Origin: Treponema sp.
GTDB lineage: Bacteria; Spirochaetota; Spirochaetia; Treponematales; Treponemataceae
Reading direction: 5' to 3'
Assembly: GCA_024696155.1 (NCBI GenBank)
Contig: JAILHD010000024.1
Location: 1 to 47,176, forward strand
DNA length: 47,176 nucleotides
A program made the translations under genes and the position numbers. The notes below the pieces were generated by a model, which ran no database searches, was not told the DNA's origin, and saw only the letters and a list, made by a program, of their open reading frames with translations. Numbering within the stretch: the first letter of the stretch is position 1; each line of letters begins with the position of its first letter. Below are positions 24,891 through 29,612 of this stretch, piece by piece.

Positions 24891-24921
24891 TTGTAAAATC
24901 GTGCGGGTTTTATCCGATAAT
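24891..24921 (+). promoter_or_regulatory. Possible xerC promoter close to the ATG
   Basis: TTGTAA (24891-24896) and GATAAT (24916-24921) with a 19-nt spacer, ending 6 nt before the ATG at 24928. There is no evident ribosome-binding site. The spacing is long, so this is weak. Confidence 0.3.
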
Positions 24922-24927
24922 AACAGT

Positions 24928-25833
24928 ATGAAACTGGCTTCTGCAATTGACGAATTTCTTCTTTATATGGGCTCTGTAAAAGGACTCAGCGAAAACACTG
25001 TCATCGGGTACAAAAATGATTATATTCTTCTTCTGGAACTGTTAGGTCATGACCGTGAACTTGATGACATTGTGCGCGAAGATTTGAATGTCTGCATTGG
25101 AGAACTTTCTAAACTAAAGCGTAAGAGCACCAGCATCAATCGTTTTATTTCTTCTATGAGGACTCTGTTTTCTTACTGTCATAAATTTGGTTACATTAAG
25201 ACAAATCCTGCTCTGTCTTTAAAAACTGTAAAAATCTCTAAGCTAATGCCGCGTTTTATGACTGAATCCGAAGTAGAAACGCTTTGTGCAATGCCTGAAA
25301 AAAATGAGCTTTTGTGGGAAAGTCGGGATAAAGCACTTTTTGAAATGCTTTTTTCTTCCGGCTGCCGTGTGAGTGAACTTGCTGGCCTTAAGATTTCTGA
25401 TTTTAACGGTGGAATTGACCGTGCTATTGTTCGTGGTAAGGGCAATAAGGATAGAGTCGTTTATTTTGGAGAGGCGGCGCAGAAAGCCTTTCTGGAATAC
25501 CTTAAAGACAGAAAAAAACTGATTATTGAAAAGGGGCTTGATCCTAAGAATATCCAGAATGTTTTTGTAAATCAGAATGGCACTGCGCTTACAACGGGAG
25601 GAATAAGATTTATTCTTTCGCGTTATACTGGGGTAGAGGGCACAAAGCATCATATCAATCCTCATGCCTTCCGTCACACTTTTGCAACACAGCTTCTTTC
25701 TAACGGCTGTGACGTGCGCGTTGTTCAGGAACTTTTGGGACATTCAAGTATTTCCACCACTCAACGTTACACCCACGTGACTACCGAAAAATTGATAGAA
25801 ACTTATAGAAATGCTTTTCCTCACAGCAAATAG
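24928..25833 (+). CDS. xerC: Tyrosine recombinase, XerC/XerD type
   Basis: Site-specific recombinase resolving chromosome dimers at dif. The 301 residues match Xer length. An N-terminal SAM-like core-binding domain (about 5-85) precedes the catalytic domain with Arg in SGCRVSELAG, Lys in GKGNKDR, the HAFRH box, LGHSS and the Tyr nucleophile in TQRYTHV. ATG 24928 fits the family start; the longer frame from 24850 overlaps the cyclase gene. Its position before hslV-hslU-flgB matches codV of Bacillus subtilis, which favours XerC over XerD, although no separate paralogue is available for comparison. Confidence 0.88.
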   Translation: MKLASAIDEFLLYMGSVKGLSENTVIGYKNDYILLLELLGHDRELDDIVREDLNVCIGELSKLKRKSTSINRFISSMRTLFSYCHKFGYIKTNPALSLKTVKISKLMPRFMTESEVETLCAMPEKNELLWESRDKALFEMLFSSGCRVSELAGLKISDFNGGIDRAIVRGKGNKDRVVYFGEAAQKAFLEYLKDRKKLIIEKGLDPKNIQNVFVNQNGTALTTGGIRFILSRYTGVEGTKHHINPHAFRHTFATQLLSNGCDVRVVQELLGHSSISTTQRYTHVTTEKLIETYRNAFPHSK

Positions 25834-25894: not shown

Positions 25895-26440
25895 ATGGGA
25901 AATAAGATTAAAATTAGAAGCACCACGATTCTTGCTGTGCGCAGAAACGGACAGGTTGCTATGGCGGGTGACGGACAGTGTACTCTTGGCGAGACAGTAT
26001 GCAAAGGTAATTCCCGCAAAGTCAGAAAAATTTATGATGGAAAGATTCTTACAGGCTTTGCAGGAAGTGTGGCAGATGCGTTTACACTCCTTGACCGCTT
26101 TGAAACTAAAGTAAAAGAATATAACGGCGATATTATGCGTTCGGCTGTTGAGCTTGCAAAAATGTGGCGAACAGACCGTATGCTTCAGAAACTTGAAGCA
26201 ATGCTGCTTGTTGCAGATAAAAACAAGATTCTTTTAATCAGTGGAGACGGTAACGTTATTGAGCCTGAACACGACGCAATTGCAATCGGTTCGGGCGGAA
26301 ACTATGCATATTCTGCGGCTCTTGCTTATCTTGATTCTTCTGATTTGAGCGCAAAGGAAATTGCAGAGCGTTCTTTGAATATTGCCGGCAGTATTTGTAT
26401 TTACACAAACCAGAACTTGACGATTGAGACACTGGAGTAA
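25895..26440 (+). CDS. hslV: ATP-dependent protease subunit HslV (ClpQ)
   Basis: Proteolytic core of the HslUV protease, a double hexamer with N-terminal Thr active sites. The 181 residues have the [19 protein letters not shown] signature, the NSRKVRKI and [17 protein letters not shown] segments and [13 protein letters not shown]. The catalytic Thr aligns with Thr10, so nine residues (MGNKIKIRS) must be removed; E. coli HslV has only Met before the Thr. No later start exists before Thr10. hslU starts 6 nt after the stop. Confidence 0.96.
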
Positions 26441-26446
26441 AGATTA

Positions 26447-27961
26447 ATGGAAAACACAGAAAATAAAACAGAACTTACCCCAAAACAGATTGTAGAAAAA
26501 CTTGACCAGTATATTATCGGACAGAAGAAGGCAAAGAAGGCTGTGGCTGTTGCTCTTCGTAACCGCTTTCGCCGTCTTAAGCTTTCGGAAGAAATTCGCG
26601 ATGAAGTTGCTCCAAAAAATATTTTGATGATTGGACCTACTGGCGTTGGTAAAACTGAAATTGCACGCCGTCTTGCAAAACTTTGCGGGGCACCTTTCCT
26701 AAAAGTTGAAGCTACAAAATATACAGAAGTTGGCTATGTTGGACGCGATGTTGAATCTATGATCCGCGACCTTATGGCTGTTGGTTATAACGACGTAAAA
26801 GCCGAAATGGAAGAGCAGCTGCGCGAAAAATCTGTTGCAATCGTAGAAGAAAAATTGCTTGATTTGCTTGTGCCTGGTTCTGGCGAAAAAGACAAGAAAA
26901 ATGATGCAAAACCAGAATCTATCCAGCAGGGCTTGATAACTCAGGCTGATGAAAATGGAATTACTCTTGATTTGAATAAACTTGCTTCTTCTTTGCAGAA
27001 TACTCTTGATGCCGCAAATACAGCAGCCGCTGCCCAGCAGAAATCTGATGAAGAAAAGGCTGAAGAAGAGAGAAATAAATCTACACGCGAAAAATTCCGC
27101 ACAATGCTTCGTGAAGGAAAACTTGAAGACCGTGAAGTTGATATGGTTGTTCACCGTTCTGTGGGAATGCCAAGCATGGAAATTATTGCGGGTGGTTCAA
27201 TTGATGACCTTCAGAACAGTATGCAGGGCATTATCAATATGATGAATGGTTCCGGACGAGGAAAAAAGCGTTCTGTTACAATTAAAGAAGCTCGTAAAAT
27301 CCTTACAGAAGAAACTCTGGACAATATGGTTGACCACGATAAGGTTGCAGACGAGGCTAAGCGCCGTGTAGAGCAGAGCGGAATCATCTTTATTGATGAA
27401 ATTGATAAGATTGCCGTTCATGGTGAAAGTCACGGTCAGGATGTAAGCCGCGAAGGTGTTCAGCGCGATATTCTTCCGATTGTAGAAGGAAGTAACGTAA
27501 ATACAAAAATGGGTGTTGTAGATACAACTCACATTCTGTTTATTGCAGCCGGAGCCTTTAGCGTTGCTGCTCCAAGTGATTTGATTCCTGAACTTCAGGG
27601 ACGTTTCCCATTAAGAGTTGAGCTTGAATCACTTCATAAAGAAGACTTTAAGAAAATCCTTATGGAGCCAAAAAATTCCCTTATCAAACAGTATACAGCC
27701 CTTTTGGAAACAGAAGGCTTAAAACTTGAATTTACAGAAGACGCTCTTGATAAGATGAGTTTTATTGCAGAAGACGTAAACTCAAAGGCAGAAAACATTG
27801 GTGCAAGACGCCTTCACACAATTATGGAAAAGGTGCTTGATGAAATTGCCTTTGACGCAGACGAGCACGCCGGAGAAACAATCACAATTGATGCAAAATA
27901 CGTTGAAGAAAAACTCAACGATGTTGCCTCAAGCGAAGACCTTTCAAGATACATTTTGTAA
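26447..27961 (+). CDS. hslU: ATP-dependent protease ATPase subunit HslU (ClpY)
   Basis: AAA+ unfoldase partner of HslV. Visible are the LTPKQIVEKLDQYIIGQ start, Walker A GPTGVGKTE, the pore-loop region KYTEVGYVGRD, Walker B in IIFIDEIDKIA, sensor-type ELQGRFPLRVEL, IGARRLHT and the C-terminal tail LSRYIL that docks into HslV. At 504 residues it is longer than the 443 of E. coli; the extra length is a low-complexity Ala/Gln/Glu/Lys stretch inside the intermediate (I) domain at about residues 145-215. GGAG near the hslV stop provides the ribosome-binding site. Confidence 0.96.
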   Translation: MENTENKTELTPKQIVEKLDQYIIGQKKAKKAVAVALRNRFRRLKLSEEIRDEVAPKNILMIGPTGVGKTEIARRLAKLCGAPFLKVEATKYTEVGYVGRDVESMIRDLMAVGYNDVKAEMEEQLREKSVAIVEEKLLDLLVPGSGEKDKKNDAKPESIQQGLITQADENGITLDLNKLASSLQNTLDAANTAAAAQQKSDEEKAEEERNKSTREKFRTMLREGKLEDREVDMVVHRSVGMPSMEIIAGGSIDDLQNSMQGIINMMNGSGRGKKRSVTIKEARKILTEETLDNMVDHDKVADEAKRRVEQSGIIFIDEIDKIAVHGESHGQDVSREGVQRDILPIVEGSNVNTKMGVVDTTHILFIAAGAFSVAAPSDLIPELQGRFPLRVELESLHKEDFKKILMEPKNSLIKQYTALLETEGLKLEFTEDALDKMSFIAEDVNSKAENIGARRLHTIMEKVLDEIAFDADEHAGETITIDAKYVEEKLNDVASSEDLSRYIL

Positions 27962-27975
27962 ATTTATCTAAACTA

Positions 27976-28019
27976 ATATTTTTGACATCCGATGATAAAA
28001 CAAAGGATGTCAAAAATAT
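27976..28019 (+). promoter_or_regulatory. 15-bp stem occluding the flgB ribosome-binding site and start codon
   Basis: ATATTTTTGACATCC (27976-27990) and GGATGTCAAAAATAT (28005-28019) are perfectly complementary with a 14-nt loop. The 3' arm contains the GGA of the Shine-Dalgarno and the A and U of the flgB start codon. The structure follows the hslU stop by 14 nt. It could be a translational switch (temperature, protein or ribosome-coupled) or a DNA operator. There is no U run directly after the stem, so it is not an ordinary terminator. Confidence 0.7.
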
Positions 28020-28434
28020 GAATAGTTTTACACGCTCAATCGATTTATTACAGCGCGAAATGGATGTTTCGAGTCTGCGCTATCAGGTTACTTCTAATAA
28101 CCTTGCAAACGCTGAAACACCAAATTTTAAGCGCCAGACTGTAAACTTTGAAAGCGAATTAAAACGCGCTTTTGAATCAGAAAAGATGGCGAAAGATTCT
28201 TTCCAGCTCACACGTACGGACGACCGCCATATCAAAATCAACCAGCCATACGATTACCGCGAAGTTCAGCCTCGTCGCGTAACAGACTATCTTTCTACCG
28301 CTAAAGCAAACGGTAACAACGTAGACGCAGAATACGAAGCAAACAATATCCTCCAGATTCAGATGCAGTACCGCTTACTCACACAACTCACAGCCTTTGA
28401 ATTTGACCAGGTTAACACCGCTATGAAAAAATAA
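28018..28434 (+). CDS. flgB: Flagellar proximal rod protein FlgB
   Basis: Rod protein linking the MS ring to the distal rod of the periplasmic flagellum. The 138 residues equal the E. coli length. Conserved start NSFTRSIDLLQREMDV, SNNLANAETPNFKR (the rod/hook family N-terminal motif), and C-terminal AEYEANNILQIQMQYRLLTQLT are visible. ATG 28018 is chosen over an upstream TTG at 27982 by family length and the AAAGGATG at 28002-28009. The start is buried in a 15-bp stem. It is the first flagellar gene after xerC-hslV-hslU. Confidence 0.94.
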   Translation: MNSFTRSIDLLQREMDVSSLRYQVTSNNLANAETPNFKRQTVNFESELKRAFESEKMAKDSFQLTRTDDRHIKINQPYDYREVQPRRVTDYLSTAKANGNNVDAEYEANNILQIQMQYRLLTQLTAFEFDQVNTAMKK

Positions 28435-28438
28435 GATG

Positions 28439-28620
28439 CTAGTTTTGCCATGCAAAACTAGTGGTGGCGGCCGGTAAACATGCTATTGAAGGGTAAATTA
28501 CGTCCGCCACCAGCTATGAAGAAATAACTTCCGTTTGTAGAACGGGGGCGTTGCGGGGCACTCCCCGCAGAAGGGGTAGCGAGCAACGCAGTGCGAGTGG
28601 GGGGAAGGCTTTCCCCTCCT
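28439..28620 (+). repeat. GC-rich multi-hairpin element between flgB and flgC
   Basis: The 199-nt gap, unusual inside an rod-gene operon, is much richer in G and C than its surroundings. It holds CTAGTTTTG/CAAAACTAG (28439-28447 and 28453-28461), TGGTGGCGG/CCGCCACCA (28462-28470 and 28504-28512), GCGTTGC/GCAACGC (28548-28554 and 28583-28589) around GCGGGG/CCCCGC (28553-28558 and 28563-28568), and GGGGAA/TTCCCC (28601-28606 and 28611-28616). CTCC at 28616-28619 can also pair with the flgC ribosome-binding site. No reading frame of note. It looks like an inserted REP- or MITE-like element. Confidence 0.6.
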
Positions 28621-29518: not shown

Positions 29519-29527
29519 TAGCAAAAA

Positions 29528-29564
29528 AATTAAAAACTTTGTTCAAAAGTTTTTTAATTTTTTT
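29528..29564 (+). terminator. Terminator after fliE
   Basis: AATTAAAAACTTT (29529-29540 region) pairs with AAAGTTTTTTAATT (29546-29559) with one bulged T, followed by T to 29564. AT-rich but long; it separates flgBC-fliE from fliF. Confidence 0.6.
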
Positions 29565-29580
29565 ACGAGAAAAAGCGTCG

Positions 29581-29612
29581 TCGATTAAAACTGCGAGAGC
29601 AGTTTTAATCGA
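29581..29612 (+). other. Perfect 14-bp hairpin with GAGA tetraloop
   Basis: TCGATTAAAACTGC (29581-29594), loop GAGA, GCAGTTTTAATCGA (29599-29612). GAGA is a stable GNRA loop. No U run follows, so it is not a simple terminator; it could protect an RNA end, be processed, or be an element end. Confidence 0.7.

Follow-up and report, generated by a model that had tools for sequence, protein, structure and literature searches.

Why should the ribosome-binding site (RBS) and start codon of a flagellar operon be matched, base for base, by the DNA lying just upstream of them? The question is raised by a Treponema sp. contig of 47,176 nt, analysed over its whole length and referred to here as the window, in which flgB, the first gene of a flgB-flgC-fliE-fliF... 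operon, follows hslVU and, further upstream, a gene for a XerC-type recombinase (NCBIfam; Table 1). The two arms of an inverted repeat in the hslU-flgB gap are 100% complementary over 15 bp and enclose a loop of 14 nt, with the left arm starting 14 nt downstream of the hslU stop codon (27959-27961), and the right arm containing both the GGA of the Shine-Dalgarno (SD) sequence and the AU of the flgB AUG (28018-28020). This is the longest perfect stem in the 47-kb window for loops of up to 30 nt, compared with a maximum of 13 bp in 30 dinucleotide shuffles of the whole window, and a 111-nt RNA around the repeat folds with -25.3 kcal/mol (z -4.8), a stability equalled in 0 of 200 shuffles. The 15-bp repeat is unlikely by chance; in the rest of the genome, matches to the palindrome did not exceed the control. 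An initial annotation of this DNA had described a perfect stem hiding the RBS and start of flgB, and both points hold: the complementarity is exact, and folding predictions place the SD and AUG in a helix once both arms are present. Other short repeats are seen in the same operon, namely a 10-bp palindrome just past the flgB stop and before flgC (28439-28461, CTAGTTTTGC-ATG-GCAAAACTAG), and two perfect 14-bp stems in the fliE-fliF gap (29523-29612).

Table 1. Features of the flgB upstream region and neighbouring genes, in window coordinates.
Feature	Position	Strand	Basis or remarks
Second sigma-28-like box (TAAA 24894, CCGA 24914)	24894..24930	+	Pattern match; 14-nt distance in relatives
hslV	25895..26440	+	NCBIfam
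hslU	26447..27961	+	NCBIfam TIGR00390; presumed source of read-through RNA
Sigma-28 -35 box of the flgB promoter, TAAA (within cTAAAc)	27969..27972	+	Pattern match; box recurs in relatives
Promoter spacer, 15 nt, CTAATATTTTTGACA	27973..27987	+	Mostly left arm (putative anti-RBS); spacer-RBS complementarity test
5' (left) arm of stem, ATATTTTTGACATCC	27976..27990	+	Predicted only in read-through RNA
Sigma-28 -10 box, TCCGATGA	27988..27995	+	Its TCC, the last bases of the left arm, is complementary to the SD GGA
Predicted sigma-28 transcript start, within loop	28001..28003	+	Inferred from aer spacing and the 14-nt leaderless class
3' (right) arm of stem, GGATGTCAAAAATAT	28005..28019	+	Shine-Dalgarno (AAGGATGT) to AU of flgB AUG
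flgB, rod protein FlgB, 138 aa	28018..28434	+	NCBIfam TIGR01396

The key to the repeat appears to lie in what else the left arm encodes. Immediately 3' of the hslU stop, with 7 nt between the end of hslU and the -35 box, is a sigma-28 (FliA) promoter of the form cTAAAc-N15-TCCGATGA, the spacing of which fits the published sigma-28 consensus TAAAGTTT-n11-GCCGATAA (PMC2859248). Besides the TAAA-N15-GCCGATAA arrangement, its assignment draws on conservation among orthologues and on the presence of a FliA-like sigma factor gene, which adjoins flhG and is truncated by a contig end. The pattern TAAAN{14,16}CCGATRA has 18 matches in the genome versus 6 for a reversed control, including the starts of flgM and of a FlgN-like gene, and a search of the region for sigma-70 promoters gave 11 matches versus 10 expected. 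Among 118 distinct flgB upstream regions, 115 carry the sigma-28 box (3 or 4 of the 4 positions matched at -35), making it the sole feature common to nearly all of them. In four relatives (L002, L026, L031 and L058) a dispersed-looking repeat (TTATCTGCGTCCCATCTGTGGC / ATCCGTGAAATCCGTGTC) lies directly 5' of the flgB -35 box, having replaced the hslU-flgB gap so that the promoter core alone remains.

In Escherichia coli aer, transcription starts 6 bp past the -10 octamer, which puts it 12 nt beyond the leading C of CCGA (PMC2859248). From this spacing and from the 14-nt leaderless class described below, we placed the predicted flgB start 12-14 nt after the corresponding C (27989). As this start lies in the loop, the left arm would be absent from the sigma-28 transcript and the flgB RBS open; stem formation would then be possible only in RNA reading through from xerC-hslVU. 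Predicted RBS accessibility at 37 °C is 0.15 in the read-through RNA versus 0.70 in the sigma-28 RNA. A transcript start inside 27991-28017, which the initial annotation had weighed against the stem, is thus just what the conserved promoter predicts; its effect is not to abolish the stem but to restrict it to read-through RNA.

The repeat is probably best understood as a promoter-embedded anti-RBS that limits FlgB translation to sigma-28-initiated mRNA. Its basis, obtained by sequence and computation, is the repeat itself, the conserved promoter and the own-species complementarity across the genus described below. With flgB's own promoter fitted in directly behind hslU, an RNA begun upstream and running through hslU, the existence of which we infer, would carry the transcribed promoter, whose spacer would fold onto the flgB SD and AUG and presumably block initiation. 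The sigma-28 RNA, begun at the predicted start in the loop, would escape the left arm and be translated, the outcome being that FlgB would be made solely from sigma-28-initiated mRNA.

A swap test was used to compare the pairing of each promoter segment with its own leader and with the leaders of other species, drawing on the 118 distinct regions, from which 54 non-redundant Treponema leaders bearing an SD were taken. Over these 54 loci the mean duplex energy was -11.8 kcal/mol for own pairs versus -8.8 kcal/mol for swapped pairs (z -9.0, 0 of 50,000 permutations), and shuffling the spacers as a control gave z -9.75. Stems of at least 11 bp were found in 9 of 57 own pairs; among 3,192 swapped pairs there were 18, several of them between close relatives. 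The signal persisted when the loci were collapsed to 18 single-linkage clusters (6 of 20,000), when the window's clade was removed (z -5.2 to -7.9, varying with segment lengths), when the -10 box was dropped as well (z -4.3), and when the 10 strongest loci were dropped from the full set (z -4.4). The test was devised after the window's stem and a first swap result had been seen, and the species are related, so that exact p-values are not to be taken at face value and it is the clade-excluded and cluster-level results, together with the flat controls below, that should be leaned on. On these grounds the RBS-masking pairing across relatives looks selected. The presence of the mask in many Treponema species, in different sequences, suggests selection against out-of-turn flgB translation.

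Arm sequences differ between lineages, often completely, and loops range from 11 to 75 nt, which makes both a protein operator and templated palindrome formation less likely. Our grouping of arms chained into one large group and does not count independent origins. In one alignable pair (L107 and L118) the spacer changes from CCTAT to TTTAT and the leader from ATAGG to ATAAG, a compensatory-type difference as read by eye.

Of the competing explanations, the one that survives best, although we consider it unlikely, is that the palindrome is a product of chance or mutation without function in this species, in which a T-rich spacer plus TCC faces an A-rich leader with GGA and template switching perfected the match. 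The stem is indeed partly compositional (TCC/GGA, T-run/A-run), and pairing in the closest relatives, the comparison called for by the initial annotation, gave a divided answer, being kept in L003 and weak in L002 and in L031/L058 (-10 kcal/mol). However, the species-swap null retains composition and is strongly exceeded even without the window's clade, and long loops lower the likelihood of template switching. For the window's species alone, the stem might be partly fortuitous, as L002, L031 and L058 pair weakly.

The complementarity is also sharply localized. The spacer pairs in excess with the SD/AUG region (-20..+6, z -6.2), and is flat against the 5' part of long leaders (z +0.3) and against coding positions +7..+32 (z -0.8), while the RBS shows no excess against the 30 nt upstream of -35 (z +0.5). 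The flat controls beside the strong SD/AUG signal confine the complementarity to the spacer and the RBS/AUG. They also bear on the reading of the repeat as a terminator or 3'-end protector of the hslVU mRNA, which its position just past hslU would favour and which we hold to be very unlikely: long leaders pair at the SD/AUG and not nearer their 5' end, the stem is followed by GAATAGTTTT with no U-tract, and a terminator scan was negative at the site.

If the mask acts on read-through RNA, it might be expected where read-through is. Among loci with an upstream stop within 30 nt and no terminator seen, the pairing excess is strong (z -7.45, n=28), and behind an upstream terminator it is not significant (z -1.4, n=12); pairing energies of the two sets differ (p = 0.011), with shorter leaders in some terminator loci a partial confounder of this contrast. 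At the level of single loci in the window's neighbourhood, L001 and L003, which have gaps of less than 10 nt and no terminator, pair strongly, and L004 and L101, which have a terminator, lack such strong pairing; L204 and L214 are exceptions that pair well despite upstream terminators. Because of these exceptions and the leader-length confounder, we regard the link between pairing and read-through as suggestive. Across species, predicted RBS accessibility rises from 0.30 in the read-through RNA to 0.41 when its spacer is replaced by a foreign one, and is 0.53 in the sigma-28 RNA. The same pairing test on another sigma-28 gene, flgM, gave no excess (z +1.75, n=11); its promoter appears to lie within the end of the upstream gene and to be constrained by it, and the last 26 residues of the FlgM query were extrapolated, the query serving only to find homologues.

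A second way of reaching the same end may exist in relatives whose flgB mRNA has no leader. The distance from CCGA to the flgB start codon is 13-14 nt in 39 distinct regions, and 10 further regions have an in-frame ATG at 14 nt, two codons ahead of the annotated ATG (the script that measured these distances scored another two cases wrongly). A start 12-14 nt after CCGA implies a leader of 0-2 nt, and from the 14-nt distance we predict leaderless flgB mRNAs in about 50 other species. An internal AUG without an SD is poorly translated, and a start codon set precisely 14 nt downstream of the first CCGA base would be silent when internal to a longer RNA. In this leaderless class the spacer shows a weak excess of pairing with the start region (z -2.6). 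A literature search on leaderless flagellar mRNA in Treponema found nothing relevant. Among the SD-bearing flgB leaders, 37 of 66 (e.g. L008, L012 and L108) contain ATGTAA, a start followed at once by a stop, 15-16 nt after CCGA, near the flgB AUG of the leaderless species and a few nt from the predicted 5' end; it is possibly a 5'-terminal start-stop element or a relic of a leaderless start.

The gene upstream of hslVU shows the same geometry. The xerC-type ATG (24928) stands exactly 14 nt after the CCGA of the second sigma-28-like box, a distance kept in many relatives, and a leaderless xerC-hslVU transcript is predicted from it. The operon may therefore be driven by sigma-28 too, so that the insulation of flgB is perhaps not about timing. 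Elsewhere in the window's own genome, the gene for an FtsK-like protein (L121) and a further gene (L123) have CCGA exactly 14 nt before ATG, and Treponema may commonly make leaderless mRNAs from sigma-28 promoters. In this genome CTAAA-N-CCGA-N-ATG occurs 14 times versus 34 for the reversed control, and without an excess an individual match to that pattern carries little weight. Evenly balanced, in our judgement, is the wider proposition that Treponema has three interchangeable ways of confining flgB translation to sigma-28-initiated mRNA (leaderless starts, spacer-RBS pairing and upstream terminators), the promoter DNA holding a further code, read at the level of RNA, that evolves together with the leader.

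Two regulatory readings fare worst. The initial annotation had suggested thermometer-like control, and a thermometer, or some other switch in the native flgB mRNA that heat, a protein or a small RNA opens, would suit the helix over RBS and AUG when both arms are present and the heat-shock protease genes upstream. It is nevertheless highly improbable, given that the sigma-28 promoter lies in the left arm, so that the native mRNA is predicted to lack that arm, that the helix is predicted to stay closed between 25 and 60 °C (RBS/AUG unpaired 0.13-0.19), and that an Rfam search gave no family at gathering score. Opening by ribosomes finishing hslU, also proposed there, fits poorly as well: the footprint expected of a ribosome at the hslU stop reaches at most to about the start of the left arm, and an arm beginning 14 nt past the stop is at or beyond it. 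Perfect symmetry overlapping a promoter could also mark a DNA operator bound by a dimeric repressor over the -10 box, a notion to which we give very little credence, as the varied loops and lineage-specific arms leave no conserved half-sites at constant spacing and half-site matches in the genome are not enriched (38 versus 45 for the control).

Nor does the suggested special link between protease and flagellum find favour, the partner of the RBS being the sigma-28 spacer, and strong pairing occurring also where the upstream gene ends farther away (L060 and L114). The gene order in Bacillus subtilis, which we take to be codV-clpQ-clpY-codY-flgB, suggests that this neighbourhood is instead an old gene order. 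A candidate CsrA site in the leader (ACAAAGGAUGUC, motif-like by eye) was set aside, as relatives with GATGTAAAC have no GGA there. The flgB leaders of L200, L201, L203, L207 and L210 have an apparent internal hairpin of their own just 5' of the SD (AGGATGTC, by eye), and appear to be of a different design.

If the promoter-embedded anti-RBS is real, the promoter spacer, usually treated as filler, would be under selection at the RNA level, neighbouring operons could be insulated without a terminator, and the placement of a sigma-28 flagellar operon directly behind a housekeeping protease operon would be accounted for. The swap test requires sequences alone and is usable for any promoter in any genus.

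How does this arrangement compare with known systems? RNA thermometers of the ROSE and FourU types also form a helix over SD and AUG; unlike these, the flgB helix is too stable for physiological melting and is not part of the predicted native mRNA. In IS10/Tn10 and other insertion sequences, an RBS is sequestered as a shield from outside promoters. As there, external read-through RNA is predicted to fold over the flgB RBS, the difference being that IS10/Tn10 protects the transposase of a mobile element and flgB belongs to an ordinary operon. As for the promoter, the sigma-28 promoter PflaB2 of Treponema denticola, described with -10 CCGATAA and -35 TTAA, has the same type of boxes as that of flgB, and as far as the source's account of PflaB2 goes its spacer is given no anti-RBS role (PMC9481697). 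The closest parallel is with phage T4, where the RBS of gene e (lysozyme), soc, 49 and I-TevI is masked in early read-through RNA and free in late-promoter RNA (review PMC3014915). A search of the literature did not find the same device reported in a flagellar operon. Shared with T4 gene e is a promoter located in the DNA that encodes the helix's 5' strand: in flgB too, by prediction, the longer RNA is masked by a helix over SD and AUG, and the RNA of the inner promoter lacks the 5' strand and is open. The T4 systems are phage genes, whereas flgB heads a flagellar operon on a chromosome, its promoter is of the sigma-28 type, and the helix exists in many lineage-specific versions. By analogy, the flgB mask would work like that of T4 gene e, and we place it in no named family.
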